Part shown: positions 46,497 through 63,441 of the stretch, in pieces
Numbering within the stretch: the first letter of the stretch is position 1
Layout of the letters: every line of letters starts with the position of its first letter
NCBI RefSeq assembly: GCF_011044495.1
Contig: NZ_CP049143.1
Coordinates: forward strand, 992,001-1,056,000
Source of the DNA: Roseimicrobium sp. ORNL1
GTDB taxonomy: Bacteria; Verrucomicrobiota; Verrucomicrobiia; Verrucomicrobiales; Verrucomicrobiaceae
Length of the DNA: 64,000 bases
Direction: 5' to 3'
Translations under genes and position numbers: made by a program
Notes under the pieces: generated by a model
Told to the model about the DNA's origin: nothing
The model's input: the letters and a program-made list of their open reading frames with translations, nothing else
Databases searched by the model: none

Positions 46497-47147
46497 CTAC
46501 CGTCGCTCAGCAAAGAGCTTGGCCAGATCGCTTTCGTAAAGGGTATATTCCCCTTCACGGAGCTTTGCCTTTTCGGGATTCCTTCGAATATAGCGGACAC
46601 AACTCGCGAAGTGATCGCCGTCACGAACCAGACGATCAAAGTAGTCATCCTGCCACAATTTTCCTGAGCGCTGCATCAGCCGATTGATTGCCCAAGTCGA
46701 CGTTCCCTTCCACGGTCCGATCAATTCCTTCAGGGAGATGTCCACGTGAACGGTGGCCAGAATGTGGACATGGTTAGGCATCAACACCCAAGCGTGATGC
46801 ACATACCGTTCTCCATCGAATTTGGTAATGACCTCCTGCACCAAGCGCCTTCGTGCGAAGTCTCTGAGTAGGCATTCACCGTGACCCGCATCGAGCCATG
46901 CATCGATGCGAGCGCTGAAGCGTAGATGGTATTCTCTTTCGGTTTTGGCGTCCCAAGGCTTTGGATGGTGGTTTAGCCAGATTTTTCTTTCTTCGAGCCA
47001 CTGCCGACGCAGGCTTGCGGGAACGGCATCTGAGAGGCGATAGGTAATGAAGTAGGTGGCGCTTGGCTGGTTCCAGTGAGGCAGGCGGTTTGCGGACTTT
47101 TCCGTGTTGGCGAACGGGTTGAAGTAGACGAGGTCCTCCTCCTTCAT
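46497..47147 (-). CDS. REP-associated tyrosine transposase (RAYT, TnpA_REP)
   Basis: 216 residues, a Y1-type HUH single-strand transposase domestic to bacterial genomes. Metal-binding HUH motif is His126-Val-His128 in VLMPNHVHIL and the nucleophile is Tyr186 in VRYIRRNPEKA. RAYTs move or maintain REP/REPIN palindromes and are not flanked by IS ends. Here the gene lies between two inverted REP copies (46407-46436 and 47212-47236), the classic REP-RAYT-REP arrangement. All catalytic residues are intact, so it could be active. Confidence 0.93.
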   Translation of the reverse strand: MKEEDLVYFNPFANTEKSANRLPHWNQPSATYFITYRLSDAVPASLRRQWLEERKIWLNHHPKPWDAKTEREYHLRFSARIDAWLDAGHGECLLRDFARRRLVQEVITKFDGERYVHHAWVLMPNHVHILATVHVDISLKELIGPWKGTSTWAINRLMQRSGKLWQDDYFDRLVRDGDHFASCVRYIRRNPEKAKLREGEYTLYESDLAKLFAERR

Positions 47148-47426: not shown

Positions 47427-50400
47427 ATGACACGTCGCAGCTTTCCCGTCATCGTAGCTTCCCTGCTGGGTCTCGTCTTTGCTCTTGTGGTGCAAGGGCA
47501 AACTCCCGGAGTTCCCGAGGCTGTACCTGCACCTGTGCCCGCGGCTCCTGTACCAACTCCAACGCCCCCCGCTGTTACTCCGCCTCCCAACGCGTCATCT
47601 CCTGCGGCTTCGTCATCGAATACTCCTGCTGCTGCCCCACCGGCGGAGGCTCCTCCTCGGTTTGAGCGACCTCCACTTCCGAGGAACGTCTTCACTGGCC
47701 CGCTTCAGTCACCACCCGAACCGGCTCCATCGATAACCACAGCTCCGACCCCGACTCCGCCGCGACCCGAGCCCGTGATTCGCGAACGCGAGCGTACTAT
47801 TTATGTGCCCTATGAGGAACTTGAGAAGGTCTTCACAGATGACGGCAAGGGCGTCTTCCTCCCCTACAAGGAATTTCTCGAGCTCTGGCAGGAGCTGAAT
47901 CTCAAGCGGGCGAAGGATGAAACGAAACCGCCGCAGGAAGGCGTGGTGTCGCGTGCTGAATACACCGGAAGCGTGGAGGGTGATGTGCTCACTATCGACG
48001 CGAAGATCACGGTGGAGTCCTTCAAGGATGGCTGGCTCACGATTCCGCTCTCGCGTGGCGTGAACCTTCCCGGTGTGACTGATGTCGATGCGGGCAAGGC
48101 CACCTTGTCGAGCAAACCGGAGGGTTATGATCTCATCGTTCCTGACAAGGGCGTGTATGAGCTCAAGATGAAGCTGCATGCGGGCATCGGCCGCAGTGGT
48201 GGGAAGTCCCGGCTCGTGTTGGCGCTGCCCTCGGCAGCAGTGTCCCGCTTCACGGCGACGGTTCCGGGAAATGGATGGGACTTTGAGGTGAATCCGGCGG
48301 CGGCCTTCACTTCGCGCCCTGCCGGAGATAAGACGGAATTGTCCTTCTTCTTTGGCAGCGGTTCCAAATTCGATGTTGCGTGGAGCAAGCCGGAAGCGGC
48401 GGTGGCATTGAAGCCGCTGATCCTCGCTTCCAACAAGGTGACCAGCGAAGTGCGCGGTGGCTCGCTTGCGACGAATGCGGCGATCGACCTGCGCATCCTG
48501 CGCGCACCGGTGAGTGAGTTTGTCATCAGCATTCCCGCAGGACAGTCCGTGCTCTCCGTGACGGGGGATGATGTGAAGGAGTGGAAACTGGATGGTGCGG
48601 ATGCTCCTGCGGGTGGCGCGCCGCAGAAGTTGACCATCGTGCTCAATGAACCTGCCAAGGAGAAGTGGGCTGGGACGGTGTCCCTGGAAGTGCCTCTGCC
48701 AAAACTTCCGGCGGATGCTCCTGTGCCACTCATTCAGATCACCGGCGCGGCGCAGGACCGTGGTGATCTCACCGTGGTGGCTGAGCCGCAGTTGGATGTG
48801 ATTCCGAAAACGGGAGAGGGACTCATTCAACAGACTGCTGCCGGAGATGCTGCTGCCGGGCTGGTAAATGTGACCGGCTATCGTTATCTGAAACATCCCG
48901 CGCAGCTTTCCTTGTCCGTGAGCGAAGCGAAGCCGCAGGTGGACGTGGAGAGTCGCACAACTTTCACCGTAGAGCGCGACCGCAGCCGCCTGGAGACGGT
49001 ATTCAACTATCAGGTGCGGCGTGTGGGCATCTTCGATGCGAGGGTGCAGCTTCCTGCTGGATGGACCGGTTGGGAAGTGGTGGGCGTCAACGCGGATGCC
49101 TGGACGGTGGAGAAGAGTGGAAACGTCGAGACGCTTGCCTTGAAGTTTCCGAAGCAGACGCTCGGCTCCACCAGCTTCACCGTGCGAGGCCAGCAACTCC
49201 GCGCGAATGCCACGGACGACGCCACGGTGCCGGTCTTCACTCCGCAGAACGTGGCGCGCCATGACGCGAAGATTGGTGTTTCCGTGCACTCCAGCCTGGA
49301 GGTGAATACCAAGGACCGCGGCTCACTCAGCCTCGAGGATGTGAATGCCCTGAGAGCGGTGATGACGCAGTATCCCAATGACCCTGAACCGCAGCAGCAA
49401 CTGGCGAGAGTGTCGCCTCCCACGGAGGTGATGCTGGCCTTCCGCCACCGGGATGCGGTGCAGACGCCGGCGACGCTTTCCTTCAAACCGCGCCCGCCGC
49501 AGGTGAATGTGCAGGTGCTCACGCTCGCGCAGGTGAAGGAGCAATCCACGCTGCACCAGTGGACACTGGTCTTTGATGTGGGGTACGCAGCCATCGACAA
49601 ATTCATTCTCGCTGTGCCCAAGGCCGTGGCGGGAGACATCCGCCTTGTGGATCCACAGGTGAAGGAGATTCGCAAGGATTACCAGGCTCCGGCAAATGCC
49701 GCGCAGCCGCCCCTGCCGAATGCAGAGGCGTATGCGCTCTGGGAAGTGGTACTGCGCAGTGAGCGGATGGGGCAGTTCACCCTCTCCCTCAGTCATGAGC
49801 AGCCGGGCACCGGGGCGCAGTCAGTTGCGGTGGATCTGCTGCAGGTGCATGTGCCGGGCGCCTTCCAGGAGACAGGACAGGTCGCCGTGCTCAAGGACGA
49901 CAACCTGGAGATCGTGAAATCCACGGCGGAGAGCATGGAGGAAATCGATCCGCGTGAATTGAGCAACAGCCTGCAGCGCTCGGGTGTGTTCCTGGCCTAC
50001 AAGTACAAGGCGCAGCCGCTCAGTCTGAAGCTGGAGATCGCCCGCAATGCCTACATCAGTGTGCCGCAGGCAGTGATCACGCACGCGGTGCTCACCTCTG
50101 CAGTGGCCACGGATCGCGCGCAGACCACCGAAGCCATCTACTGGGTGAAGAACAACGCGCAGCAGTTCCTTACCGTGCGACTGCCGAAAACGGCGAGGCT
50201 GGTGAGTGATGTCTTCGTGAAAGGCCAGACACAGCAGCCCATGAAGCGTGAAGGCGCGGATGATCTGCTGATTCGCCTGCCTTCGGATGCTGCTTCGCGC
50301 CGCGCGGCGTTCCCCGTGCGTTTTGTGTATGAAGTGCCCAGCGAAAAAGCCGGGGAGAAAATCGGCTGGTGGGGTGGCATTCACATCGATCCTCCCGCCC

Positions 50401-51161
50401 TGCTCGATGTGACCAAGGTGCTGGAGGCGCATCACGCGCTCTACCTGCCCGAGAGTCATGACTATACCGGGTTCACGGGTCCCATGACGTTGAGTGTGCG
50501 TGACCGCGGCTGGATGCGCTTCCGCAGCATGGTGAATGCGCTGGTGCCTGCCTTTGGACCTTCCCTCACGCAGAGTTCGGGAGATTGGAACACCGTGCCC
50601 GCGATTCCCCCGGATCAGAAGGCGGCGTTCGATTTCCAGGTTCCCACTCAGGGGCGCAATGTGGTGCTGCATCGCCTGGGTGAGCCGGCGGCCATCGATG
50701 TCTCCTTCCGGTCTCGTGGCTTCTCTTATTTCCTGGAAGGGGTGATGTTCTTTGTGGTGCTCGCGCTTGGCGTGGCGCGGTGGAAGGCGCCGCTGCGTGA
50801 GAAGTTCCGCTACCTGCTCATCTTTGGATTGGGCGGCATCCTGCTCACCGGAATCCTGAGCCCTGCCAATGGACAGGTGGCCAAGGGGTCCGTCTTTGCC
50901 GCAGGCATCATGGCAGTGGCCTGGACGGTCTGTGGATTTTTCCGTGGGGTGAAGAACTGGATGCAACGACCGAAGCATCGTCCGCCGCCCCTCGGTGGTG
51001 GTGGTGGCAGCGGTGGTCCACCGAATCCGGGTGGAGGTAGTCCCAAGCCGGAAAGTCCGGAACTCGTGACTGCGAAGGTGCCGGTGCATCCTCCGGTTTC
51101 TGAACCTGCAATCACCGCCCGGACGACCAGCCCTCCCGGCGGTGGCAATGAGGTGAAATGA
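47427..51161 (+). CDS. giant exported protein 1 of a paralogous trio
   Basis: 1244 residues, function unknown. Signal peptide about 1-25; Pro/Ala/Thr-rich linker to ~110; conserved module (about 123-160: IYVPYEELEKVF and FLPYKEFLELW), then a long beta-rich body, a core block near 850-960 with QFLTVRLPKTARLVSDVFVKG, an aromatic/proline part (YLPESHDYTGFTGPM), a VPTQGRNVVLHRLG segment near 1070, three membrane helices (about 1098-1116, 1128-1145, 1152-1170) and a Gly/Pro-rich cytoplasmic tail. All four blocks recur in the next two proteins. It should span the periplasm, anchored by its C-terminus. Related large proteins occur in Planctomycetes to my knowledge. It heads an operon with 27 bp to the next gene. 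Confidence 0.85.
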   Translation: MTRRSFPVIVASLLGLVFALVVQGQTPGVPEAVPAPVPAAPVPTPTPPAVTPPPNASSPAASSSNTPAAAPPAEAPPRFERPPLPRNVFTGPLQSPPEPAPSITTAPTPTPPRPEPVIRERERTIYVPYEELEKVFTDDGKGVFLPYKEFLELWQELNLKRAKDETKPPQEGVVSRAEYTGSVEGDVLTIDAKITVESFKDGWLTIPLSRGVNLPGVTDVDAGKATLSSKPEGYDLIVPDKGVYELKMKLHAGIGRSGGKSRLVLALPSAAVSRFTATVPGNGWDFEVNPAAAFTSRPAGDKTELSFFFGSGSKFDVAWSKPEAAVALKPLILASNKVTSEVRGGSLATNAAIDLRILRAPVSEFVISIPAGQSVLSVTGDDVKEWKLDGADAPAGGAPQKLTIVLNEPAKEKWAGTVSLEVPLPKLPADAPVPLIQITGAAQDRGDLTVVAEPQLDVIPKTGEGLIQQTAAGDAAAGLVNVTGYRYLKHPAQLSLSVSEAKPQVDVESRTTFTVERDRSRLETVFNYQVRRVGIFDARVQLPAGWTGWEVVGVNADAWTVEKSGNVETLALKFPKQTLGSTSFTVRGQQLRANATDDATVPVFTPQNVARHDAKIGVSVHSSLEVNTKDRGSLSLEDVNALRAVMTQYPNDPEPQQQLARVSPPTEVMLAFRHRDAVQTPATLSFKPRPPQVNVQVLTLAQVKEQSTLHQWTLVFDVGYAAIDKFILAVPKAVAGDIRLVDPQVKEIRKDYQAPANAAQPPLPNAEAYALWEVVLRSERMGQFTLSLSHEQPGTGAQSVAVDLLQVHVPGAFQETGQVAVLKDDNLEIVKSTAESMEEIDPRELSNSLQRSGVFLAYKYKAQPLSLKLEIARNAYISVPQAVITHAVLTSAVATDRAQTTEAIYWVKNNAQQFLTVRLPKTARLVSDVFVKGQTQQPMKREGADDLLIRLPSDAASRRAAFPVRFVYEVPSEKAGEKIGWWGGIHIDPPALLDVTKVLEAHHALYLPESHDYTGFTGPMTLSVRDRGWMRFRSMVNALVPAFGPSLTQSSGDWNTVPAIPPDQKAAFDFQVPTQGRNVVLHRLGEPAAIDVSFRSRGFSYFLEGVMFFVVLALGVARWKAPLREKFRYLLIFGLGGILLTGILSPANGQVAKGSVFAAGIMAVAWTVCGFFRGVKNWMQRPKHRPPPLGGGGGSGGPPNPGGGSPKPESPELVTAKVPVHPPVSEPAITARTTSPPGGGNEVK

Positions 51162-51188
51162 AGTGATCTGAACCCCACCAGGCCAGCC

Positions 51189-54100
51189 ATGGGACGATAC
51201 TTCACCTTCACCGAAGGCACCCTCGCGTGTGCGGCTCTCGCATGCAGCGTGCTCCTTGCCGTGCCCTTGCGCGCCGAGGACGCACCTGCACCCGCGCCAA
51301 CACTTGAACCCACACGACACGAATTATGGGTGCCCACCAAGGATCTCAAGGAGGTCCTGGAGAAGCATCCGAATGCCGTCGTGCTCGACCGCGAGCAGTA
51401 CATGGCGCTCATCCGTGATGCCGGAAGGGTGGGAGCGCTCAAGGAGCAGGCAGCGCCGGTCGATGCGGTGATCGAAGATGTGAAGGTCACGGCCCGAGTG
51501 TCTGAGGACGTGTCCACGGCGACGCTGACGTATGAGTTTCACGTCCACAATCTGAAGGATGGGTGGAGCGAGGTGAGTCTGCCTTTCGCCCTGGGGAGCA
51601 TCCGCAGTACCCTGTCTCCGCAACCTCCGGCATGGGCAGGCCCACCGGAGGTCATGCTCACCGACCTGGCTGCGGAAAAGCCGATCATGGTGAACTCTGA
51701 TGAGAAAGCCTGGAAGACCACGGTGCTCTCCCAAGGGAAGGGCAGGCATGTGCTGCGAGTAGTCTTTGTCGCCCAAGTGTCCCAGGGACCTGTGAAGGGT
51801 AGCGCCTTGGGGATTACAGGACCCAAACCGAGGGCTGTCGCCATGACGGCAGGTCCCAAAGGACCGCAGTATACCGGTTCTTCGGCAGCGACGCCCGTCC
51901 GGCTGGAGTTGCCTCCTGGGTGGAAGCCTGCATCCACGGATGTTGCCACGCGTGTTGCAGACGGAGCTTGGGACGTGATGGCAAATGCTTATTCGTGGAG
52001 CACTGGCATCCAGGCACACTTGCGCACCTTTTTCATGTTCAGGCTGGATTTGGAGCCTGCCGAAAACCTTGCGAAGGGTGCGGAGGCGATCACGCAGTCC
52101 CAGGTTTCGATCCTTTATGGCATCTCAACGGATCGAGTATCGGCAGCCGCAGAATTGGCGTGGTCAGGGGCGCAGCCGCGTGGTTCTGAAAAGCTTCGTG
52201 TCTCCTTGCCAAAGGAGGCCCGCGTGTTGCATGCCACCACCTATGGCTCCGCTTTGGATGTCATGAAGTGGGAGCCGGTCGAGGGCGGCGTAGAGTTTCA
52301 ATCTCCTGCCGTGGCCAGAAATGCAGGGAAGGTGCTGGTGGAGTTCGAGGTACCATGGGCAGGCGCATCTGATGCTGTGCACCTGCTGGAACTGCCAGCG
52401 GCACGGATTGACGGAGCGGTGATCACCAGGTGGGATACCGCCATCATGGCAGAATCAGACGTCGGCGTGCGTCTCAACAAGCTGCTCCCTTTCGCCAGAC
52501 CGGTGAAAGAAACGGACAAGTACCCGCTGCGGACACTGGCGAAGGTGGCGATCAAGGGCGTGGGAGTTGGTGCCCTGATTCAATCTGCACCGGCGGAAGA
52601 TCTCTTCCGTCATCCGCGATTTGTTGGCGGATTCAGTTTCGATGCCCTGCCCGACAAACCACTGGTCGAAGTGCAGATGGTGCCGGACCGCTTCAGCGTG
52701 GATGCCGATGCTCTTGTGGAGGTGGCTTCGCATGAAGTCAGTGTGGTGCGCACCTTGGTGTTTCACGGCGAAGCAGGCAGTACCTCTCGCGCGGTGGTCA
52801 CACTCCCGGAGTCAGAAGTGTTTCTGGAAATACCAGTGACCTCTGGAGAGCACGTGCTGTGGAAGCAGGTAAGCCGTGATATCGAAGTCACGTGGCCGCA
52901 GGGGCTTGGCAAGGGGGAGCAGACTTCGCTCACCATACGTACGCGGCGCGACATTCCTCCCAATGCAGCGGATGGCACGGCCAGTGAGAAGGTGGCCATT
53001 GCGAGTCTTCCGGTCTCGGGCGCGAGTCGTGTGTCGGGCTATGCTGCGCTGAAGTTTGACGAATCATGGAAGGTCAACGTCACGGACACTACGGGACTTG
53101 AGATGCGTGATGCCAGGGCCACGCCCGTGCGCGGGCGTATGGCGTGGTTTGGGCTGAAGGAGTGGAAGCTTGGCTTCGATTTGAGCCGTCGCTCGCCGGT
53201 GCATGATGCCACCATCACCGCATATGCGTTGCCACGTGCGAAGCAGGTGGAAATCGAAGGGCAGATTGCCCTGAGCGTATCAGGCGCGCCGTTGCGCAAG
53301 TTTGAGGTGAAGCTGCCAGTCTCGATTGCGCCGTTGCTGCGTGTGACGTCCCCTCTGGTGGGTGAGCAGTCGCTGGATGCGGCCACCGGCGTCTGGACCT
53401 TGACCTTGGGACGAGAGCTCATTGGTGCGGCCAATGTGCGCTTCCGCATGAGCCTTCCTGCGGATAAGGCTCCTGAAGGTTCCGCAGAAGGCACGCTCAC
53501 CACGGCGCTGCCAGACATCACTGTTCCAGGTGCGCGCCGCACGGCGGGCCGCTGGGTGGTGGAGGCGAACACGGACACGGAACTAGCCTTCGCGACGCGT
53601 GGTGTGCAGCCCCTTGACTCGCGTCGTCCCCCGTCGGTGCAGGGCTACAGCCCGCAGCATCGCGTTATTGCCGCGTATAGTCACGGGGGAGGGGAGCATG
53701 AGATCCGCCTCACGGCCACGAGGCATGATCCGGCGTCGCTTGCAGGCATGGTGCTCATTCACCTGCGCATGACCAGTGTGCTCGGCCAGGATGGTTCCGC
53801 CCGGCATGAGGCCGTCTTCACCCTGCGGCACAATGGCCGGCAGTTTGCCACCATTCGCCTGCCAGAAGGAGTGGGCCTGCTCAGCACCATGGTGGACGGC
53901 AAGGTGGTGAAGCCGGTGAAAGCCGGCACGAACGAGGTGCGTCTGCCGCTGAGCTCCCGCATCGGTGACTCGGCCCCGATTGAGGTGAAAGTGATTTATG
54001 ATACACCCTCCGGCGAATGGGGCGGCAGCGGGAGGGTGGCTCTCACTCCGCCAACTCTTGGAGATGAAGTGCCGGTGATGGAAACGCAGTGGAAGGTCTA

Positions 54101-55982
54101 CACTCCGGGTGGCTTCACCCTGGCGCATGCTGGCAGCGGGTTGGTGGAAGATGAGAGGGGTGGCTCGATTTCGCCGCGCGCTCCTGGATTCTGGGAGAAT
54201 CTGTTTGGCAGGACCGTGGTGGGGAAGGTCATGGGGACCCCTGCGGAAGCTCCGGTGGACTTCCTGTCTGGAGGAGGCAGCTTTGACGACCTTGCAAAAA
54301 ATGAGGAGCACGCGCGGATGGTCGCGGAGCGGCTCAATAAGATCATCCTGCCTTCAGTGCAGTTTGCCGGAGCATCGTTGACACAGGCCATCGATTTCCT
54401 TCGCATCGAGAGCAAGCGCTACGACCACGCCGAGCCGGATCCGGCGAAGCGAGGCGTGAACCTTGTGGTGAAACCTGAGGCTGCATCATCCACGGCAACC
54501 ATTTCCCTGGACCTCAAGGATGTTTCGCTTCTCGATGCACTGCGATACGTCACGGAACTGAGTGGGGCCAAGTACAGGATCGAGTCCTTCGGCATTACCA
54601 TCGTTCCCATAAGTGATGTCCGTTCAGAGATGTACTCACGGAAGTTCAAACTGACGCTCGCGCAGATGCTCGCCTATAAGGAGAAATCGATGGGCATGCA
54701 TGCGCCGAGTGCGCCGCGGGATCCCTTCGCGCCTGCGGGAGGGGATGAGAGGAAGCCTTCCACAGGGGAGTTTTCGCTCGAGGCTGCCCTCAAGGCGGAA
54801 GGCATTCCGTTTCCAGAGGGGGCCGTGGCTGTGTACGACCGTGATGCGCAGATGCTGCTGGTCAGGAATACACAACCCAGCCTGGATCTGGTGGATAGCT
54901 TGCTTGATTCATTGAGGCCTGACGAGGTCATGGTCGACAACGATGACCCGAATGCGGGTACGGAGAACTACGGACAGGTCGAGAGCCCGGGAGACTACTA
55001 CATTAAAAAGATGTCGCGGATCATCTTTCCGTTCGTGGAATTCAACGGCATTTCCGTGGAGGAGGCGATTGAGTATCTTCGTATCAAGAGCAAGGACTAT
55101 GACCAGGTGGAATCCGATCGCGCCAAGAGGGGCGTGAATCTCATCGTCAAGCCTGGCGCTGCACCATCCACAGCGACCATCAGCCTGGATCTCAAGGACG
55201 TTCCGATGTCGGAAGCGCTGCGCTACGTCACTGAGCTCGGCGGAATGAAATACAAGGTGGAGCCCTATGCGGTGGTGGTGGTGCCCATCTCGGATGTAGG
55301 CACAGAGATGTACACCCGCACCTTCAAGGTGCCGCCAGATTTCCTCACCCATCAAGAGGTGAGTCCTCCCGCTGGAGGGCCAGACGCCGGACTCGCCGCC
55401 AGACCCGCCGCGAATAGTATGCTCACGTCAAACGGCATCCCCTTTCCCGAAGGAGGCTCGGCTACATTTATTCCCGCGACCAGTCAGCTCATTGTGCGCA
55501 ATACCCAGTCCAGTCTCGATCTTGTGGAGAGTTATGTGAATGCATTGATGAAGGACTACATTGAGAACCGTCGCAATGCGTCGCTCAATCGCGCGAAGTC
55601 GGGTCTTGTGCCCCTGGAACTGGAGTTGCCCACGAGTGGCCAGGTGCTTGTCCTTCACGGACATCAGCGACCGAAGGAGTTTGCCCTGCATTACCTTTCG
55701 TGGGAGCGGCAGGCAACGCGCACCAGTTTGCTGGTGCTGTTGGGCGCGACGTTGTTCTGGGTTTTGCGAAACGTGCGCATCTGGTTCTACACTTTTGTCG
55801 TGGTGTTAGTCCTGGTGTGTGGACCGATCCTGATTTTGCCCTCGTGGACCGCAGAGTTCTCCGCCTTGTTGGCTGGTTGGATGATGGCCCTTGGAGTCTG
55901 GCTCCTTTGGAAAATCGCGGAGTGGTGGAGAGAGCGTACAAGGCCGTTGGAAAACTCGAACGAAAAGGAGGTGGTGGCGTGA
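51189..55982 (+). CDS. giant exported protein 2 of the trio, with tandem STN/N0-like modules
   Basis: 1597 residues. Signal peptide about 1-27; N-terminal motif block about 43-78 (LWVPTKDLKEVL, VLDREQYMALIRDA); long beta-rich body; shared core block near 850-900 (QFATIRLPEGVGLLSTMVDG); then two tandem copies of a secretin-type STN/N0-like module (about 1046-1242 and 1275-1454), each with an FLRIKSKxYD segment, ISLDLKDV, ALRYVTEL and a following VRNTQxSLDLV strand. A LPTSGQVLVLHG segment near 1478 and three membrane helices (about 1511-1575) close the protein. The STN-like modules suggest contact with another envelope component such as a secretin or pilus base, but no secretin beta-barrel is present. 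It overlaps the third gene by 4 bases. Confidence 0.85.
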   Translation: MGRYFTFTEGTLACAALACSVLLAVPLRAEDAPAPAPTLEPTRHELWVPTKDLKEVLEKHPNAVVLDREQYMALIRDAGRVGALKEQAAPVDAVIEDVKVTARVSEDVSTATLTYEFHVHNLKDGWSEVSLPFALGSIRSTLSPQPPAWAGPPEVMLTDLAAEKPIMVNSDEKAWKTTVLSQGKGRHVLRVVFVAQVSQGPVKGSALGITGPKPRAVAMTAGPKGPQYTGSSAATPVRLELPPGWKPASTDVATRVADGAWDVMANAYSWSTGIQAHLRTFFMFRLDLEPAENLAKGAEAITQSQVSILYGISTDRVSAAAELAWSGAQPRGSEKLRVSLPKEARVLHATTYGSALDVMKWEPVEGGVEFQSPAVARNAGKVLVEFEVPWAGASDAVHLLELPAARIDGAVITRWDTAIMAESDVGVRLNKLLPFARPVKETDKYPLRTLAKVAIKGVGVGALIQSAPAEDLFRHPRFVGGFSFDALPDKPLVEVQMVPDRFSVDADALVEVASHEVSVVRTLVFHGEAGSTSRAVVTLPESEVFLEIPVTSGEHVLWKQVSRDIEVTWPQGLGKGEQTSLTIRTRRDIPPNAADGTASEKVAIASLPVSGASRVSGYAALKFDESWKVNVTDTTGLEMRDARATPVRGRMAWFGLKEWKLGFDLSRRSPVHDATITAYALPRAKQVEIEGQIALSVSGAPLRKFEVKLPVSIAPLLRVTSPLVGEQSLDAATGVWTLTLGRELIGAANVRFRMSLPADKAPEGSAEGTLTTALPDITVPGARRTAGRWVVEANTDTELAFATRGVQPLDSRRPPSVQGYSPQHRVIAAYSHGGGEHEIRLTATRHDPASLAGMVLIHLRMTSVLGQDGSARHEAVFTLRHNGRQFATIRLPEGVGLLSTMVDGKVVKPVKAGTNEVRLPLSSRIGDSAPIEVKVIYDTPSGEWGGSGRVALTPPTLGDEVPVMETQWKVYTPGGFTLAHAGSGLVEDERGGSISPRAPGFWENLFGRTVVGKVMGTPAEAPVDFLSGGGSFDDLAKNEEHARMVAERLNKIILPSVQFAGASLTQAIDFLRIESKRYDHAEPDPAKRGVNLVVKPEAASSTATISLDLKDVSLLDALRYVTELSGAKYRIESFGITIVPISDVRSEMYSRKFKLTLAQMLAYKEKSMGMHAPSAPRDPFAPAGGDERKPSTGEFSLEAALKAEGIPFPEGAVAVYDRDAQMLLVRNTQPSLDLVDSLLDSLRPDEVMVDNDDPNAGTENYGQVESPGDYYIKKMSRIIFPFVEFNGISVEEAIEYLRIKSKDYDQVESDRAKRGVNLIVKPGAAPSTATISLDLKDVPMSEALRYVTELGGMKYKVEPYAVVVVPISDVGTEMYTRTFKVPPDFLTHQEVSPPAGGPDAGLAARPAANSMLTSNGIPFPEGGSATFIPATSQLIVRNTQSSLDLVESYVNALMKDYIENRRNASLNRAKSGLVPLELELPTSGQVLVLHGHQRPKEFALHYLSWERQATRTSLLVLLGATLFWVLRNVRIWFYTFVVVLVLVCGPILILPSWTAEFSALLAGWMMALGVWLLWKIAEWWRERTRPLENSNEKEVVA
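54325..54915 (+). repeat. intragenic repeat unit A (STN/N0-like module)
   Basis: Encodes residues about 1046-1242 of giant protein 2. Unit B at 55012-55551 encodes a homologous stretch: LNKIILPSVQF versus MSRIIFPFVEF, VNLVVKPEAASSTATISLDLKDV versus VNLIVKPGAAPSTATISLDLKDV style matches, and QPSLDLV versus QSSLDLV. The DNA has diverged but the protein duplication is plain. Confidence 0.85.
55012..55551 (+). repeat. intragenic repeat unit B (STN/N0-like module)
   Basis: Second copy of the duplicated module in giant protein 2 (residues about 1275-1454); the linker between units is acidic (VDNDDPNAG). Unit B is shorter in the segment before the LVRNTQ strand. Confidence 0.85.
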
Positions 55983-58900
55983 GAACGTTCGTTGAGATGA
56001 TGCAAAAGATGCGTGTGGCAGCAATGACGATCAGCGCATGGTGCGTGGCTGGAATCGGGCATGCACAGCAACAGACACCACCGCCACCGCCGGATGGCGC
56101 AGCGCATACGGTGATCATCCCGTTCGATGCCACGAAGCCGATCAGGGAGCAGTCGGCGAACAGGTTCTATCTCGACTATGATGTATTCCAGGAACTCTGG
56201 GCGAAGGCCAAGGAGAGGCGGCAGCCAGATCAGGCGGAGAAGGACACTGACACTGGTGTGGCAGTGAATCTCGCCATGCATGATGTGGCCGTGGAAGATG
56301 CCGCTTTCACGGTAAAGAGCCGGTTCCAGATTGGCTCCCGTGGCGAGTGGCAGCGGGTGGAGCTTCCGTTGTCCGCGGCAGGAAACGCAGTAGTTGGCTG
56401 GACGTTGGACGGTCGCCCTGCGCCTCTCAAGGATGGCGGCATTCTTCTTGAGGAGCCGGGAGCGCATCAACTGGAAGCGATGGTGAGCGTGGGCCTGTCT
56501 CGTGGCTGGCAGGATGCCGCGTTGAAAATTCCTCCAGCGGTCGCAAGCGTGTTGCGAGTCTCCGTACCGCTTACGGACGGATTGCCGGATATCACGCCCC
56601 GGAAGCAGACCTCACTGGTGTCCGAAGAAGTGCGCGAGGGCAGACGTGTCTTCACCTTAGTGCTCAATACCAGCCAGGGCGATGAACTGACGCTGAAACG
56701 GCAGGCCATGCGCCGCTCCGTGGAGCAGGCAGTCGCGGCGGCTTGCGACGTCAGGACTGATGTCACCGCACGCCAGAAGTCGGACCAGGTGCAGGCACGG
56801 TTCAATTTCACCTTCTCTGGCGCGGAGAGATCCGCGTTCGTCGTTACGATGGATGAAGATGTGCGGCCGGTGAGTTGGAACGTCACCGGTATGCGGGAGG
56901 CGATCCTACGCCGTGAAGGCGGGCAGATGGTGGCGGAGATACGGCTGCTCAAGCCGGTCCGGGATGCGTTCGCTTTCTCCATGTCGGCGTTGCGTGCGCG
57001 GGATACCGTGGATGGTGAGCGCAAGACACCACACGTGGGAGCGCAGGCGGCGCGTGTGGAGCGCGTGGTGCAGATCCTTGCCTCGCCGGCGTTGAAAGTG
57101 ACAGTGGCATCCACGGGAGCGCAGCGTGTTCCCGCAGTCTTTCCCGTGGAGGGCGCTGATTCGATCCTCAGCTCCTGGAAACTGCGCGGTGATGATACAC
57201 TGTCCTACACCGTGGCAGTCGCGGAGGACATCGTGAGTGCCACGGTGGAGGCACTGGCTCAGGTGGGCGTGAGCAAGCTGGAGATCATGATTGCCGCCAC
57301 ACTTCATGCAGGGCGGTTGCCGTTGAGCGAGGCGTACTTGAGGCTGCCACCAGGATATGAGGTGCAGAGTGTGCAGGGCTCAGGCCTGCGAGACTGGCAG
57401 CGGGATGCGGGTGGTGTATTCGTGCAGTTTGACGGTGGAGTCGTCAAAGAAGCCCGCTTCGTGTTGAATGCAGCCACCACGCGTGCCCCGGGTGAAACGG
57501 CCGCCAGCCTCCCGGTGGTGTTCTTTGAAGGGATGGCGAAACAAAGGGCGCGTGTGGCCCTTGCGGTGAATGCCGCCATGGATGTGAGGCTGCAGTTTGA
57601 TCGTGCCTGGAGTGAGACGGATCCTGCCTCCTGGCACTCAGTCTTTACGGTATCGCCTCCCTGGGTGACGAAGCGTGAGCTGCTCTGGGAGCCTGATGCG
57701 GCTTCTGCCAAGCAGCCTCCCGCTGCCCCGACAGTGACATTGATTCCCCAACCGCCGAAGCTCAGTGCGGATACGGTGCTCCTCGTGCGCTCGGCGGATG
57801 AGATGCTTGCCTTCTCCCAGCAGGTGGGCATTTCGGTGGACCAGGGAGCCGTGAGCGGGCTGAAGGTACGCCTGCCAGCCTCCGCACCGGAGGCTCGCGT
57901 GAGCGGGCCGGATGTGCGCGATGTGCAGGTAACCACGCAAGGTGAGACAAGGGAATACAACGTCACCTTCCAGGGAGAGATCCTCGGCGCTGCTTCTGTC
58001 ACGCTGGATTGGGAGCAGCCGCCCGCTGCCGAAGCGGCGCTGCCTCTCGCGGTGGTGGACGGCGCGTCGCGTTCGCGGCGGTTCTTCATCCTGGAGAACA
58101 GTTCCTCCCGCGAGGTGAAGACGACTCTCAAGCAGGTGGAGAAGTCGGTGGCCTCCGCGGTACCGTGGCTGCCCGAGGGGCTGGCTTCGCCCGAGCTGTA
58201 CCAGGCGCGCAGCGCAGACGCCGAGATGAAGCTCACCTTCTCCAACACGCAGGCCACTGCGGCGAACGCCGCCATCGTCACGCTCGCGGAAATCACCACC
58301 GCCCTGCGTCCCAATGGAGAGCGCTGGGAAACGGTGGTGTATTCCCTGGCGAATCGATCCCTGCAATTCCTGCCGGTGCGTCTCCCGAAGGATGCGGAAC
58401 TGGTGACGGTGATGGTCGGTGAGGAAATGGTGCGCGCCGACCGGGGCACACCAGCCACCACAGCCGGTGAAAAAGCCGAGCTCTGCCACCTTGTGCCGCT
58501 CCTCCAGATGCGTGCGGGTGAACTCTCACAGCAGGTGAGGCTCACGTACTTTGTCCCGGCGAAGGATGGTGCGTCGATCAAGGATGCCGCGGCGATGGAT
58601 GATCCCGAACTCGTGGGGCTCTCTGTGGAACGGACCTTGTGGAATGTATGGGTGCCCCAAGGCTACGAGCTCAATGAGTTCGATGGCAACATGGAGGAGG
58701 TGGTCGAGGAAGTGATCGAGGACGAGAAGGTGCAGCAGAAACTGAGTGACGTGCTCCGCCTGAACCGCATCGTTTCTACGAGCAGCAGCAGCGAGTATGA
58801 CGTCAAGGAGGCACTCGGCAATGCGACCAAGGCATTGGAAGAAGTGAACCGGTATCAGGAGAGCAAGAAGTCCAAGTTCTCTCGCAGCAGCGGCGACAGC

Positions 58901-60166
58901 AAGCCTGCCGTCACCAAACGCGCGACGCTGAAGGAAGGTGACGAGGAAGTGCGCTTCAAAAGCAATGCCCAGCTGGAGCAACAACTGAAGCAGCAGGAGG
59001 TTCTGCTCAAGGACAATAGAGTGCGTGTTGGAAAGCTGAGCAAGAGCGGCAGCGGCACATGGCAGGTCCAGATGGAGCAAGGTGCCTTCACAGGCACGGG
59101 CTCCGTGAACAGCAACACCTGGAACTACAACAAGGATGCTGCGGCGCCAAAAGCCAAGGAAGGCAAGGTGATGCTGCAGGGAGCCAACACCGTGCTCAAC
59201 GATAACGTTGCCGTGAGCAATGATTTCCTCACTCGGGGAGATGCCCCGGTGGCGCTGCCTTCCGCCCCTGCTGCGAAGGCGGCCACACCGCAGATGGAGC
59301 AGCCGCAGATGCCATCGCTCCAGGGGAACGTCACGCTCAACAACGCGCGTGGTGCTGCCAATTTCCTGCAGGCCGACGGTGGATACAGGGTTGGCCAGGA
59401 GATGGTGGTGCCCGCACAGTCGGCATCCGGCGGGAGCTTCAATTCTTCGAGCGGCCTCGGCGCTTCAGTACCTCCCAACATGAGCCTCGCTCCCGCCGCA
59501 CCTGCAGCCCCGGCGGATTCGTTTGCTCCCGTGCCTCCCGCTTCTTCTGTACCTGCGGGGGCTGATCCGTTTGCCCCTGCTCCATCCAATTCGCCTTTGG
59601 GTGCAGCTCAGCCTGGAGCAGCGCGGAGGTATCAGGATCTAAATGAGCCGGCGGTGACACCGTCCCGGGTGGAGCAAGTGCAGGGGATCGAAAAGAATCT
59701 CCAGCTGGGATACAGCTACCTCAACCTCGGAAACATGGATCAGGCGAGTGCGGCATTCCAAGAAGTGCTTCGTGTGGATCCCAACAACAGGGCTGCACGT
59801 CGCGGCCAGGAAGACACGGAGCGCGCCCGCGCTGAGTATTTCAGGACGACCAGAGATCACACCCGCGCCCGCATGCTCAATGAGGTCAATCGAGGATGGG
59901 AGGACCCGGTGCCGGTGCAGTTGACGACTACTCCGCAGTTGAAGCCTCAGGGGCGTGTGTCACTGCCCGTGGATGTGCCACTGAATGGGACGGTGTATCA
60001 CTTCCGCAAGTTAAAGGATCATGCCGCGCTTGAGTTGGAAATCGACAAGCCGCTCGAACCGCAGCGGAAGGTGGCGTTGTGGATCCTGGCCGGTGGCGCG
60101 GTGGTGATTGCAGGTGTGGAGTGGGCCGGACGGAAGCGTCGCTCAAGAATTCAGCAGGCCGCGTGA
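55979..60166 (+). CDS. giant exported protein 3 of the trio, with coiled coil and TPR-like C-terminus
   Basis: 1395 residues from a GTG that follows AAGGAGGT and overlaps the stop of the previous gene (GTGA), showing translational coupling. Signal peptide about 1-29; motif block about 43-82 (VIIPFDATKPI, FYLDYDVFQELWAKA); beta-rich body; core block near 793 (QFLPVRLPKDAELVTVMVGEE) and a VWVPQGYELNEFDGNM segment; an acidic/coiled-coil region about 900-1000 (EEVVEEVIEDEKV); an Asn/Gln/Ala-rich stretch; a TPR-like repeat (about 1231-1309, LQLGYSYLNLGNMDQA); VPLNGTVYHFRKL near 1332; one C-terminal membrane helix (about 1364-1383). The open frame extends 5' inside gene 2, but the GTG is the coupled start. 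Function unknown. Confidence 0.85.
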   Translation: MRTFVEMMQKMRVAAMTISAWCVAGIGHAQQQTPPPPPDGAAHTVIIPFDATKPIREQSANRFYLDYDVFQELWAKAKERRQPDQAEKDTDTGVAVNLAMHDVAVEDAAFTVKSRFQIGSRGEWQRVELPLSAAGNAVVGWTLDGRPAPLKDGGILLEEPGAHQLEAMVSVGLSRGWQDAALKIPPAVASVLRVSVPLTDGLPDITPRKQTSLVSEEVREGRRVFTLVLNTSQGDELTLKRQAMRRSVEQAVAAACDVRTDVTARQKSDQVQARFNFTFSGAERSAFVVTMDEDVRPVSWNVTGMREAILRREGGQMVAEIRLLKPVRDAFAFSMSALRARDTVDGERKTPHVGAQAARVERVVQILASPALKVTVASTGAQRVPAVFPVEGADSILSSWKLRGDDTLSYTVAVAEDIVSATVEALAQVGVSKLEIMIAATLHAGRLPLSEAYLRLPPGYEVQSVQGSGLRDWQRDAGGVFVQFDGGVVKEARFVLNAATTRAPGETAASLPVVFFEGMAKQRARVALAVNAAMDVRLQFDRAWSETDPASWHSVFTVSPPWVTKRELLWEPDAASAKQPPAAPTVTLIPQPPKLSADTVLLVRSADEMLAFSQQVGISVDQGAVSGLKVRLPASAPEARVSGPDVRDVQVTTQGETREYNVTFQGEILGAASVTLDWEQPPAAEAALPLAVVDGASRSRRFFILENSSSREVKTTLKQVEKSVASAVPWLPEGLASPELYQARSADAEMKLTFSNTQATAANAAIVTLAEITTALRPNGERWETVVYSLANRSLQFLPVRLPKDAELVTVMVGEEMVRADRGTPATTAGEKAELCHLVPLLQMRAGELSQQVRLTYFVPAKDGASIKDAAAMDDPELVGLSVERTLWNVWVPQGYELNEFDGNMEEVVEEVIEDEKVQQKLSDVLRLNRIVSTSSSSEYDVKEALGNATKALEEVNRYQESKKSKFSRSSGDSKPAVTKRATLKEGDEEVRFKSNAQLEQQLKQQEVLLKDNRVRVGKLSKSGSGTWQVQMEQGAFTGTGSVNSNTWNYNKDAAAPKAKEGKVMLQGANTVLNDNVAVSNDFLTRGDAPVALPSAPAAKAATPQMEQPQMPSLQGNVTLNNARGAANFLQADGGYRVGQEMVVPAQSASGGSFNSSSGLGASVPPNMSLAPAAPAAPADSFAPVPPASSVPAGADPFAPAPSNSPLGAAQPGAARRYQDLNEPAVTPSRVEQVQGIEKNLQLGYSYLNLGNMDQASAAFQEVLRVDPNNRAARRGQEDTERARAEYFRTTRDHTRARMLNEVNRGWEDPVPVQLTTTPQLKPQGRVSLPVDVPLNGTVYHFRKLKDHAALELEIDKPLEPQRKVALWILAGGAVVIAGVEWAGRKRRSRIQQAA

Positions 60167-60197: not shown

Positions 60198-60227
60198 TTG
60201 CGGCCCTGAGGGGTTTTGCGATTATAT
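60198..60227 (+). promoter_or_regulatory. candidate promoter upstream of the P450/FAAL cluster
   Basis: TTGCGG and TTATAT are separated by 18 bases in the gap between the giant-protein operon and the P450 gene. Weak support. Confidence 0.3.
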
Positions 60228-60313
60228 TGTCACTTAGGGTTTGCCGCCGCCTTATAGACCCGCATAATTTGCGTGTCGGGTTTCACCGGCCTTTGCCCCC
60301 ACGCAAGCAACGC

Positions 60314-61633
60314 ATGCTGGCCTCACTCCCCCAGACCACGCCATCACTGGAAGCGGAGCCTGACCCCTTGGGTCATCTTCTGAAAATGATTCACGAGCAG
60401 GGTGACATCGTGCGGTACCACAGTGGCTATGGTCTTGTGCATCTGTTCAATCATCCGGATCACGTGCAGGCCATCGTGCAGAATGCCAACTTCGAGAGGA
60501 CAGCACTCATGAGGATGGTGCTGGGTGATGGACTACTCGCGAGCGATGGCCGCTACTGGCAGCAGCAGCGCCGGCTGTTGCAACCCTCGTTCCACGAGAA
60601 ATGCATTCACGGATTTGGTCACGTGATCGTGCAATCCACTCTGGGCATGCTCCGTCGCTGGGAGAAAGAAGGTGCAACAGGGGAAGTGTTGGAATTGTGT
60701 GCTGAGGCGCGAAGACTGACCTTGGAAATTATTCTCAGCGTATTGTTTGGAGAAGTGCCGCAGGAGGATGTGGTCCGGATGGTCGATGCTGCCCAGGTGA
60801 TCATGGCGCATGTGGGCGATCTTTCCGATGTCGTATTCAACGTGCCGCTGATCATCGACCCCCAACTCAGGGAACGTTTCCTATCAGCGATGGAGGTCAT
60901 GGATTCCATCGTTGCGGAGCTCACGCAAAAGGCTGAGTCGGGTCCGAGGAGTGCACGAGGCATCGTGTCCTCCCTGTTGCAGGCGCGGGACGAGGGCGTG
61001 CTTACCGCGCGACAGGTGCGGGACGAAATCGTCACCATGATCATCGCCGGCCATGAGACCACGGCCATCGCACTCTCATGGGCGATGGCACTTCTCTCCG
61101 CCCATGCAGATGTCTACGAACGGCTCGTGGAAGAGGTGGATCGCGTGCTCGATTCACGCACTCCGGTGGTGGACGATCTCTCACAGCTCACCTACCTGCG
61201 CATGGTGCTGGATGAGTCCATGCGTCTCTATCCACCCGTGAGTGTGGCGGTACGGCAGGCCGTGAAGGAAGATACCGTCGCAGGAGTTCGCATTCCCGCT
61301 GGAGGGTTGGTCCTCGTTTGTTCCTTTACCACCCACCGGCATCCGGATTTTTGGAGAGAGCCTGAACGATTTGATCCCGAGCGTTTCCTTCCTGAACGCA
61401 GTCGTGATCGCCACCGTTATGCGTTTTTCCCATTCTTGGGTGGCAGGCATCAGTGCATCGGCCAGGGGTTGGTGATGATTGAAGCGCCGTTGATTCTGGC
61501 CCTTCTGCTCAAGCATGTGAAGATGCACATGCCGTCGGGTATCAGGCGATATCCGCTTCCCGGTACAGCCTTGCGTCTGAAGGAGGGGTTTCCCATTACA
61601 GTGGAATTTAGGAAACCTCTGCCTGCATGCTGA
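60314..61633 (+). CDS. cytochrome P450
   Basis: 439 residues. I-helix motif AGHETT, ExxR motif ESMR, and heme-binding loop FPFLGGRHQCIG with the thiolate ligand Cys381. No N-terminal membrane anchor, so it is soluble as most bacterial P450s. The layout (ERFLPERS, HRYAFFPFLGG) resembles CYP families acting on fatty acids or lipids. It overlaps the FAAL gene by 7 bases, suggesting it hydroxylates or desaturates the lipid chain used by the cluster; redox partners are not encoded here. The upstream TTG start at 60227 is less likely because the ATG gives the family's usual length. Confidence 0.9.
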   Translation: MLASLPQTTPSLEAEPDPLGHLLKMIHEQGDIVRYHSGYGLVHLFNHPDHVQAIVQNANFERTALMRMVLGDGLLASDGRYWQQQRRLLQPSFHEKCIHGFGHVIVQSTLGMLRRWEKEGATGEVLELCAEARRLTLEIILSVLFGEVPQEDVVRMVDAAQVIMAHVGDLSDVVFNVPLIIDPQLRERFLSAMEVMDSIVAELTQKAESGPRSARGIVSSLLQARDEGVLTARQVRDEIVTMIIAGHETTAIALSWAMALLSAHADVYERLVEEVDRVLDSRTPVVDDLSQLTYLRMVLDESMRLYPPVSVAVRQAVKEDTVAGVRIPAGGLVLVCSFTTHRHPDFWREPERFDPERFLPERSRDRHRYAFFPFLGGRHQCIGQGLVMIEAPLILALLLKHVKMHMPSGIRRYPLPGTALRLKEGFPITVEFRKPLPAC

Positions 61634-63441
61634 CCCCGCAGCACAGCATCCGGGGAGAGGCCGCACTCGGCGCGGGAACTGGCGTGCCGCACCGCGTGCA
61701 GACCTTGATGGATCTGGTGGAGCATCATGCTGCGACGGGTGGACAAAGCAGGGCCTTTGTATTCCTGCAGGACGGTGTTCAGGAAACGGCATTCCTCACG
61801 TACCCGGAATTGGATCGGCAGGCGCGATCCGTCGCCGCGTGGTTGCAATCACAAGGACTCGAAGGGCAGCGTGCGCTGCTGCTGTTTCCTTCCGGGCTGG
61901 AGTTTGTGGTGGCGTTTCTGGGTTGTCTTTATGCCAGTGTGATTGCTGTCCCGGCCAATCCTCCGCGCTTGAATCGCAAGGCACACCGGCTGCGCGCCAT
62001 GGTGGAGGATTCGCAGGCGGCATTGGCTCTCACCACCTCGCGCATGCAGGAGCGCATTCGTCCTGCATTGGTAGAGGCAGGCATAGAGGGACTGGCTTTT
62101 GCCTCCGTGGATTCCCTAACTGCAGGATTGGAGAGCCAGTGGCGACGACCTGCGGTGAACAGTGAATCACTTGCGTTTCTGCAATACACTTCAGGCTCTA
62201 CGTCGCAGCCCAAGGGCGTCATGGTCAGTCATGGAAATCTCCTGGCCAATCATCGCATGATGCAGGAGGCCTTTGGTCAGACGAAGGACACACGCATTGT
62301 CACCTGGCTGCCGCTGTTTCATGACATGGGTTTGATCGGCAATGTGCTCCAAGCCCTCTATCTAGGCACCGAGTGCGCCATCATTCCTCCCGAGGTCTTT
62401 CTCATGAAACCAGTCTGCTGGCTGCAGGCGATGGCGCAACGACGTGCCACCTTCAGCGGTGCTCCGAACTTCGCCTACGAACTGTGCGCGCAAAAGATCT
62501 CGGGGGAGCAGTGCCTTGGCCTGGACCTTGGCAGCTGGGAGACCGCGTTCTGCGGTGCGGAACCGGTGCGTCATGCCACCATGGAACGGTTTGCCGCAAC
62601 ATTCGCCTCGTGCGGTTTTCGAAAGCAGGCGTTGTATCCCTGTTATGGACTCGCGGAGGGGACGCTGTTTGTCGCGGGAGCAGGCAAGTCCACAGGTGCG
62701 CATGCGGCGTGTTTCAGCGCTGCGAGTTTGGAGAATCATCGCGCGCAGGAGGTGTCAGTCGCTGAAGCGGGCACTCCCTCACGCATCCTTGTAAGCTGCG
62801 GTCACACGTGGGGACAGCAACAGATCGTGATCGTGGATCCAGAGACAAGGGAACGCTGCGCACCGGGAATGATTGGAGAAATTTGGATCTCGGGCCCGAA
62901 CGTGGCGCAGGGATATTGGCTAGGTGGGATGAAGACGACGCATGGCTTTGATGCCTCTCTGCCTGACGTGGAAGGCGCGCATTTCTTTCGCACCGGTGAT
63001 CTGGGTTTCATCCATGACGGTGGGTTGTATGTCTCCGGTCGTATCAAAGACCTGATCATCATTGCCGGTCGCAATCACGATCCCGGCGACATCGAGCACA
63101 CGGTGTGCGCGAGCCATCCGTCGATTCGCTCATCAGGTTGCGCGGCCTTCCAGGCGGAAGTGGAGGATGATGCGAAACTCATCATCGCAGTGGAACTGGA
63201 GAGAACCAGCGACGGGCAGAATGGTGCCGCCACGTTGATATCTCCGATTGCATCCGCCTTGCAAACCATCGTTAAGCACATTCGCGAAGCGGTCGCGGCG
63301 CAACATGACCTATCCGTTCACGAAGTGGTGTTGCTGCGTCCAGCTGCCCTGCCGAAGACATCGAGCGGAAAAATACAACGCCATGCAACCAAGGTAGCGT
63401 GGATGGATCGATCTTTGAAGCTATGGCAATCAAGGAAGTGA
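61627..63441 (+). CDS. fatty acyl-AMP ligase (FAAL)
   Basis: 604 residues. AMP-binding signature YTSGSTSQPKGVM, WLPLFHDMGLIGNVLQ, SGAPNFAYELC, YPCYGLAEGTLF, and RTGDLGFIHDGGLYVSGRIKDLIIIAGRNHDPGDIE. The DMGLIGNVLQALYLG and SGAPNFAYELC segments are typical of FAALs, which activate fatty acids as adenylates and pass them to a carrier protein, rather than to CoA. A C-terminal K-x-Q-R segment (SSGKIQRHATK) is present. The next gene begins inside its last 19 bases, so both are coupled. It should start a lipopeptide or similar product by loading the acyl chain onto the adjacent ACP. Confidence 0.95.
   Translation: MLTPQHSIRGEAALGAGTGVPHRVQTLMDLVEHHAATGGQSRAFVFLQDGVQETAFLTYPELDRQARSVAAWLQSQGLEGQRALLLFPSGLEFVVAFLGCLYASVIAVPANPPRLNRKAHRLRAMVEDSQAALALTTSRMQERIRPALVEAGIEGLAFASVDSLTAGLESQWRRPAVNSESLAFLQYTSGSTSQPKGVMVSHGNLLANHRMMQEAFGQTKDTRIVTWLPLFHDMGLIGNVLQALYLGTECAIIPPEVFLMKPVCWLQAMAQRRATFSGAPNFAYELCAQKISGEQCLGLDLGSWETAFCGAEPVRHATMERFAATFASCGFRKQALYPCYGLAEGTLFVAGAGKSTGAHAACFSAASLENHRAQEVSVAEAGTPSRILVSCGHTWGQQQIVIVDPETRERCAPGMIGEIWISGPNVAQGYWLGGMKTTHGFDASLPDVEGAHFFRTGDLGFIHDGGLYVSGRIKDLIIIAGRNHDPGDIEHTVCASHPSIRSSGCAAFQAEVEDDAKLIIAVELERTSDGQNGAATLISPIASALQTIVKHIREAVAAQHDLSVHEVVLLRPAALPKTSSGKIQRHATKVAWMDRSLKLWQSRK

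Follow-up and report, generated by a model that had tools for sequence, protein, structure and literature searches.

A trio of paralogous giant proteins in Verrucomicrobiota and Planctomycetota, with secretin-derived tails in many Verrucomicrobiota that suggest a possible inner-membrane scaffold for the type IV pilus secretin

What are three giant, putatively exported proteins, encoded side by side in a verrucomicrobial genome, likely to do in the cell envelope? The question is raised by a stretch of 64,000 nucleotides from Roseimicrobium sp. ORNL1 (NZ_CP049143.1, positions 992,001 to 1,056,000; hereafter the window, in genome G000), in which three consecutive genes on the forward strand encode the proteins that we call A (47427-51161, ATG start, 1244 aa), B (51189-55982, ATG start, 1597 aa) and C (55979-60166, GTG start, 1395 aa). 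B begins 27 bp after A, and C overlaps the stop codon of B by 4 bases (GTGA) and is preceded by a ribosome-binding site, AAGGAGGT, at 55965-55972, so that the adjacency, spacing and site described in an earlier note on this DNA were confirmed from the coordinates. That note knew of no function for the trio, which overlooks the best lead: B and C end in tails with domains from the type IV pilus secretin of the host itself. We tentatively propose, as a possibility that falls a little short of an even chance, that in many Verrucomicrobiota the trio is a periplasmic scaffold, anchored in the inner membrane, that docks onto the pilus secretin through these borrowed and matched domains. Below, L### and G### are our labels for loci and genomes.

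The NCBIfam profile of the Amuc_1098 type IV pilus secretin (NF042912) matched B at 4.9e-108, in two stretches, and C at 1.5e-32, with scores of 362.2 and 112.5 bits that both fail the curated cut-off of 750. Only the periplasmic half of the secretin is represented, since in B the matches stop near position 458 of the 805 in the profile, and in C at position 240, and no match to the secretin barrel was obtained in the trio proteins of the window. B holds two N0-N1 pairs (residues 1049-1453), of which pair 1 lies at 54333-54914 (N0/STN, residues 1049-1142; N1/Secretin_N, 1147-1242) and pair 2 at 55008-55547 (N0/STN, 1274-1368; N1, 1373-1453), pair 1 being the more divergent. C holds the TPR part (59657-59914, residues 1227-1312). 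All Pfam matches of B and C, those to TPR, STN and Secretin_N among them, were below cut-off, and the other weak, sub-cut-off Pfam matches in A, B and C were set aside. The model of the B tail matched the solved N0-N1 structures of secretins (the N-domains of InvG, XcpQ, PilQ, EscC and GspD). PDB sequence searches gave no match with the A profile or with B, and TPR proteins were the sole matches with C. The window's B and C thus have the TPR module, the N0-N1 pairs and, in the model, the N0-N1 fold in common with Amuc_1098/PilQ, but they are barrel-less, end in membrane helices and, like A, contain a core that is unrelated to secretins. According to PMC4960237, no outer-membrane protein of Akkermansia is more abundant than Amuc_1098, and immunogold labelling located it in that membrane.

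Of the 41 trio loci from Verrucomicrobiota in which the tail of B or C could be seen, 27 had comparable modules. Their arrangement varied: the TPR part sits in B in L049 and L051-L054, the B tail of G009 covers positions 18-459 of the secretin profile, and short stretches from the barrel side, about 50-57 residues long, were seen in B or C of L047, L050 and L076. The genome of the window itself has three secretins above the family cut-off, and 35 secretin-type matches when the trio and the full secretins are included. One of its secretins, L002, lies in an Amuc_1101-1100-1099-1098 operon, and a near copy, L001, does not.

Are these domains the remains of one capture, inherited ever since with the trio? 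In a careful N0(-N1) tree of 51 modules (27 from trios and 24 from secretins, with L057, L108, L076, L133, L062, L008 and L044 omitted), the trio label required nine changes, at least six of them forced by starred branches. The window's module 2 and that of G001 clustered with secretins of their genus (99/92, starred), the G006 module with the G006 secretin (100/99, starred), and the G009 and G016 modules with the G009 secretin (100/93, starred). The approximately unbiased (AU) test rejected a single clade both for 11 last-module rows, a group picked after a first tree (p 1.6e-64), and for all 27 trio rows (2e-111). The TPR tree, with 16 trio and 26 secretin rows, required ten changes, at least eight of them forced; it contained starred own-lineage groups for G000/G001, G012/G018, G006, G009 and G004, and one clade was again rejected (p-AU 5.8e-50). 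One capture followed by descent was therefore rejected for N0 and TPR alike. B module 1 of the window, G001, G012/G018 and some others formed a trio-only group (97/92, starred), which makes module 1 the older of the two.

The same matching was seen in DNA, where the own genome's secretin was the best match in nine of the ten genomes with any match; the tenth, G029, was nearest to the secretin of its relative G032, and G010 had no match. Within module pair 2 of the window, the DNA of 55008-55348 shares 80% identity with L001, a secretin encoded in this genome, and 81% with L002 over 292 nt. Compared with L002 at the protein level, module 2 is 85% identical over 117 residues, with agreement at 22 of 50 fourfold sites, so that the amino-acid sequence is conserved while third positions are near saturation. 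This combination points to an exchange long ago, followed by selection that has preserved the amino acids. The idea that conversion was recent and left a simple trace in the DNA was rejected because third positions agree in just 50% of codons between module 2 and L002; judged from the sequences, the probable old exchange would look the same whether it came about by conversion, recapture or parallel change.

These figures bear on the explanation that the matching is passive, with gene conversion overwriting similar secretin-like tails that never contact a secretin. Such a process would find material in the 35 secretin-type matches of the window's genome, and full secretin paralogues within one genome are indeed also close in N0 (L001-L002 93%, L114-L124 91%). 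However, the 85% protein identity, with 22 of 50 fourfold sites in agreement, implies that selection went on acting on the protein well after the sequences were exchanged, and secretin fragments in other proteins do not behave like the trio modules. In a control set of 16 loci with other secretin fragments from G000, G006, G009 and G012 (L175 and L181 overlap), no fragment exceeded 52% identity with the secretin of its own genome, with the exception of the barrel fragment L170 (88%), and the margin in favour of that secretin was never above 4 bits (L170, 16 bits), or else the secretin of another genome was favoured; one L180 stretch had no other match. Trio modules favoured the own secretin by up to 136 bits (L051) and 209 bits (L057). 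The margin for module 2 of the window was 12 bits, because its rival is a nearly identical secretin of the same genus, and the L043 TPR led for its own secretin by 1 bit only. On balance we regard passive exchange without contact as distinctly unlikely.

Some carriers of secretin sequence outside the trio deserve description in their own right. L170 (G012, 2283693-2284157) is a 197-aa frame that lies about 8 kb from secretin L124, whose C-terminal barrel region it matches at 88% identity. L192 (G000, 5033000-5037500) encodes a 572-aa protein, M56/BlaR1-like by eye, that ends in two secretin N0-type modules, and in L007 (G000, 421970-425302) a protein of 951 aa that also looks M56-like by eye is joined to degenerate sequence from the secretin N1 domain and barrel.

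What, then, is the part of the trio that does not come from secretins? The cores of A (47778-50489, residues 118-1021), B (51315-54143, residues 43-985) and C (56105-58693, residues 43-905) matched no Pfam or NCBIfam family above cut-off; for A as a whole there was no Pfam family at E up to 1, and one NCBIfam match far under its cut-off. Between the window proteins, BLASTP gave E-values of 3e-19 (A-B), 2e-16 (A-C) and 4e-8 (B-C). Using hhalign on orthologue alignments of 18 (A), 13 (B) and 11 (C) rows, we obtained collinear core alignments of 816 columns for A-B (E 3.8e-47), 838 for A-C (E 1.3e-44) and 847 for B-C (E 3.8e-33). The short elements named in the earlier note were located in all three proteins: the paired N-terminal boxes start at A127, B48 and C47 (in A, VPYEELEKVF / FLPYKEFLELW at 47805-47888, residues 127-154, conserved in the A orthologue alignment), the QFxx[VI]RLPxxxxL element stands at A913, B885 and C796, and the juxtamembrane element at A1076, B1484 and C1337. 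Within the A core, three consecutive segments, D2-D4 (48390-49982, residues about 322-852), are mutually repeated (hhalign of segments, probability 98-99%, E 3e-14 to 4e-20), and the first and last core segments are not clearly repeats of these.

A FastTree phylogeny of 129 cores (48 A, 44 B and 37 C, with three-core loci labelled by gene order) resolved A, B and C as three exact clades with support of 0.991, 0.833 and 0.987. Taken with the profile alignments over more than 800 columns per pair, this strongly supports the view, already put forward in the earlier note, that the three are true paralogues that arose by duplication. Each clade holds both Planctomycetota and Verrucomicrobiota, so the triplication would predate the split of these sequences between the phyla, and transfer of the whole operon between phyla is possible beside an ancient triplication. 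The kinship with uncharacterised proteins of Planctomycetes to which the earlier note pointed was also strongly supported, as trio loci are present there with their cores inside the A, B and C clades.

The three genes also stay together. In a search with a fragment of A, 29 of 57 relatives matched at E 1e-3, and 23 of these, the own genome included, exceeded 350 bits. When named genomes were scanned, 51 loci were obtained, of which 41 carry titles of Verrucomicrobiota or its members and 10 of Planctomycetota or its members. An A gene was present in 59 of 60 compared loci. The exception, L112 (CP070806.1, Phycisphaerales), has a 427-aa protein that matches the start of the A core only, with no further core in the locus. 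In all 51 testable loci A was followed by a further core on the same strand, with a gap of -691 to +87 bp whose negative values arise because open reading frames (ORFs) were called from the most upstream start; L072, L074, L086, L092, L094, L095, L102 and L104 were too short or broken for this comparison. Another core followed B in all 40 loci with at least 9 kb downstream, fused to B in 20 and as a separate frame in 20 (L058 was excluded for a run of N, and in L111 the frames overlap and may be a broken fusion). These counts, like those of the secretin modules, leave aside 14 loci on repeat contigs (L063, L064, L066-L069, L071, L073, L077-L079, L083, L096 and L097). B and C were named by position in Planctomycetota, where the tree backs the names, and in L160-L164, which stand outside the tree. 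Orthologues that are linked in this way in relatives indirectly support the earlier suggestion that A, B and C form one complex; that this complex spans the periplasm is plausible. Profile similarity and linkage, whose absence the earlier note named as grounds for refuting it, were both observed.

A broader profile matched 29 of 194 sampled Verrucomicrobiota genomes at 1e-30, and by frame length 7 of these have an A-type protein and 22 two-core giants only. In genus g12, none of the 17 listed genomes matched as a trio carrier. Four records of metagenome-assembled genomes titled Akkermansia muciniphila (L070, L085, L087 and L099) carry the trio; these titles may mismatch the species, and we make no claim on that genus. 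A frame of 24,471 residues after A in G054 (L140-L143) looked like a giant gene but proved to be an artefact, made up for the most part of Ns. In G001, G002, G012, G016, G017, G042 and G050, stand-alone proteins of about 557-614 aa match the N-terminal part of the A core only and are a smaller relative of the family.

Where would such proteins sit in the envelope? A consists of a signal-like N terminus, a Pro-rich linker, the beta core, three C-terminal membrane helices (50721-50933, residues 1099-1169; hydropathy and model) and a Pro/Gly-rich tail. B consists of a signal-like N terminus, the core, the two secretin module pairs and C-terminal membrane helices (55701-55940, residues about 1505-1584), three in the model and two by hydropathy. 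C has a signal-like N terminus, the core, a low-complexity stretch, the TPR module and one C-terminal membrane helix by hydropathy (60071-60127, residues 1365-1383). The membrane helices of the earlier note were thus recovered as predictions in all three proteins; the signal-like N termini were judged from sequence alone. Periplasmic cores on an inner-membrane anchor are the likely arrangement, and hydropathy suggests the inner membrane for the anchors of B and C. The fused B-C proteins bear on this topology, since 7 of 16 (L053, L057, L105-L107, L110 and L113) have four membrane segments between the cores, which would bring the C core back into the periplasm, as expected if the signal of C became a membrane helix.

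The predicted structure of A (1073 residues, pLDDT 76.7) is a chain of beta domains followed by the C-terminal helices. Its top structural match was Ost1/ribophorin I (Z 13.2, 308 aligned residues, rmsd 10.5, on a model with pTM 0.38), which is about 10% identical to A, A being bacterial and having more domains; A may share the tandem saddle-type beta domains of that protein. Residues 212-382 resembled the N-terminal beta domain of M1 aminopeptidases such as LTA4H and ERAP1 (Z 12, rmsd 3.7 over about 160 residues), but the zinc motif HExxH of those enzymes is missing from A, B and C, and on the model neither likeness would demonstrate a function. Foldseek matches of A to integrins and complement proteins had low TM values and were taken as common beta architecture only. 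A layer with a structural or adhesive role that has nothing to do with pili, in which the tails would be mere spacers, might be read from beta-domain chains that weakly resemble integrin ectodomains in Foldseek (TM 0.15 or less) and from the absence of HExxH; yet it would leave the lineage-matched secretin modules unexplained, and the predicted topology puts the cores in the periplasm. We consider such a layer highly improbable.

The scaffold that we favour would work as follows. The beta-domain cores of A, B and C would stand in the periplasm, held in the inner membrane by their C-terminal helices, and the three proteins would act jointly as one complex. The tails of B and C, close to the membrane, would in many Verrucomicrobiota have acquired the TPR, N0 and N1 parts of the own Amuc_1098/PilQ, omitting the barrel. 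The borrowed domains may then pack against their equivalents in the secretin, or occupy the places of subunits in or under its ring, and this contact would couple the inner-membrane scaffold to the outer-membrane channel. A sharper version, in which B and C are inner-membrane-anchored, barrel-less hetero-subunits that enter or cap the periplasmic ring of the own secretin, and whose N0, N1 and TPR parts each lineage keeps matched by repeated exchange, seems to us doubtful. GspC and PilP are inner-membrane proteins that contact the N0 ring of secretins. The likeness of the trio to them lies in the proposed job only. Pfam returned neither an HR nor a PilP domain for the three proteins at E up to 1, a level at which a homology below the reach of hidden Markov models is possible.

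Several observations weigh against docking by such a scaffold. As to topology, six of the 16 fusions (L054, L056, L070, L089, L100 and L103) have three inter-core segments, which would leave the C core in the cytoplasm, and three (L085, L101 and L109) have two at the threshold used; the C-terminal segment of C is sub-threshold in several species (e.g. L047, L050-L052 and L059), and the pTM of the A model is low at 0.38. As to the modules, they are missing from 14 of the 41 Verrucomicrobiota trio loci and were found in none of 8 in Planctomycetota, and the trio of G010 has no secretin parts even though that genome has two Amuc_1098 secretins. On the map of the window's genome, the trio lies about 5 Mb from the pilus operon, and the nearest DNA match of module 2 is L001, outside that operon. 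The own-lineage N0 groups of G012/G018 (97/77) and G029/G032/G035 (92/93) are unstarred and less sure. Module 1 showed ties or reversals (window +1 bit, L043 and L048 0, L055 -4), and the TPR part did so in the window (-3 bits, to the same genus), as did L052 (-15 and -8, to G032). Finally, secretin fragments also occur in unrelated proteins of the window's genome, M56-like ones for example, so such domains spread without known docking.

Since the trio is kept in loci without modules, its older function, common to Planctomycetota as well, can do without the secretin parts. This also touches the possibility that the barrel-less pieces are decoys or assembly regulators, which would attach to the protomers of the secretin and restrict or time how these assemble, without bridging the membranes. 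The window proteins do keep TPR, N0 and N1 without a barrel, and the modules are matched to the own secretin; but such a role would explain neither the giant conserved cores and A nor the retention of the trio where modules are absent, and we hold it to be very unlikely.

Could the trio instead signal? Two-core giants that lack A and are homologous to B-C had a VWA/YfbK-like gene nearby in 16 of 18 loci (not in L148 and L156), 15 of the 18 coming from the 22 two-core genomes and three (L060-L062) being separate loci that had served as seeds of the VWA model. These sister loci (L149-L155, L157-L159, L165-L167 and L060-L062) are widespread in Verrucomicrobiota; in L153 the VWA gene lies 2.8 kb from the giant. 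An extracytoplasmic function (ECF) sigma factor was the identity of 7 of 10 scanned ORFs near the VWA gene, and a few VWA proteins carry secretin TPR or N0 parts (L062 and L159; weakly L060, L157 and L155). The arrangement looks like envelope signalling, and YfbK-like vWA proteins of the Planctomycetes-Verrucomicrobia-Chlamydiae group, located in the inner membrane, are proposed in PMC12204202 to be force transducers. The partner genes of the two-core giants resemble those proteins by family and may be the same genes; none occurs in the window operon.

If the trio is kin to this arrangement, its scaffold would monitor the condition of the envelope or the secretin and pass a signal inward, with the borrowed modules reading the pilus channel. 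The surroundings of the trio speak against this: the VWA model found no VWA gene in the window ORFs of at least 150 aa or in the trio loci examined (including L160-L164, with A and a fused two-core protein), no sigma factor was among the six window neighbours scanned, and no family was common to the flanks of more than four trio loci among 395 flanking ORFs, the largest shared flank sets stemming mainly from close relatives. A sensing role for the trio is accordingly rated unlikely, and docking by a scaffold stays our preferred, tentative reading. Among the neighbouring genes of the window are those for a class II (D, K, N) tRNA synthetase, a divergently transcribed Y1 (IS200-like) transposase family protein upstream of A (46497-47147) and, downstream of C (60227-63441), a cytochrome P450 and an AMP-binding enzyme whose position next to the trio is not conserved.

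No description of the trio was found in the open-licence literature, among the matches listed, and we rate the system as outside known kinds, though its predicted folds and borrowed domains are known. With about 4,200 residues of predicted envelope protein encoded in an operon of two phyla, it would represent a large envelope structure that seems undescribed in the sources searched. An envelope beta-domain giant together with N-terminal parts of secretins appears to be a recurring theme, met in the trio or, less often, in the VWA partner, and the sister arrangement with VWA and ECF sigma factor offers a second route to function. The lineage matching of the tails names a sharp partner, Amuc_1098/PilQ, and presents an unusual evolutionary case in which separate proteins are kept matched in several lineages via exchanged domains. 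If B and C do join the secretin ring as hetero-subunits, they would connect the inner membrane to a secretin channel in a new way, added to a scaffold common to Verrucomicrobiota and Planctomycetota.

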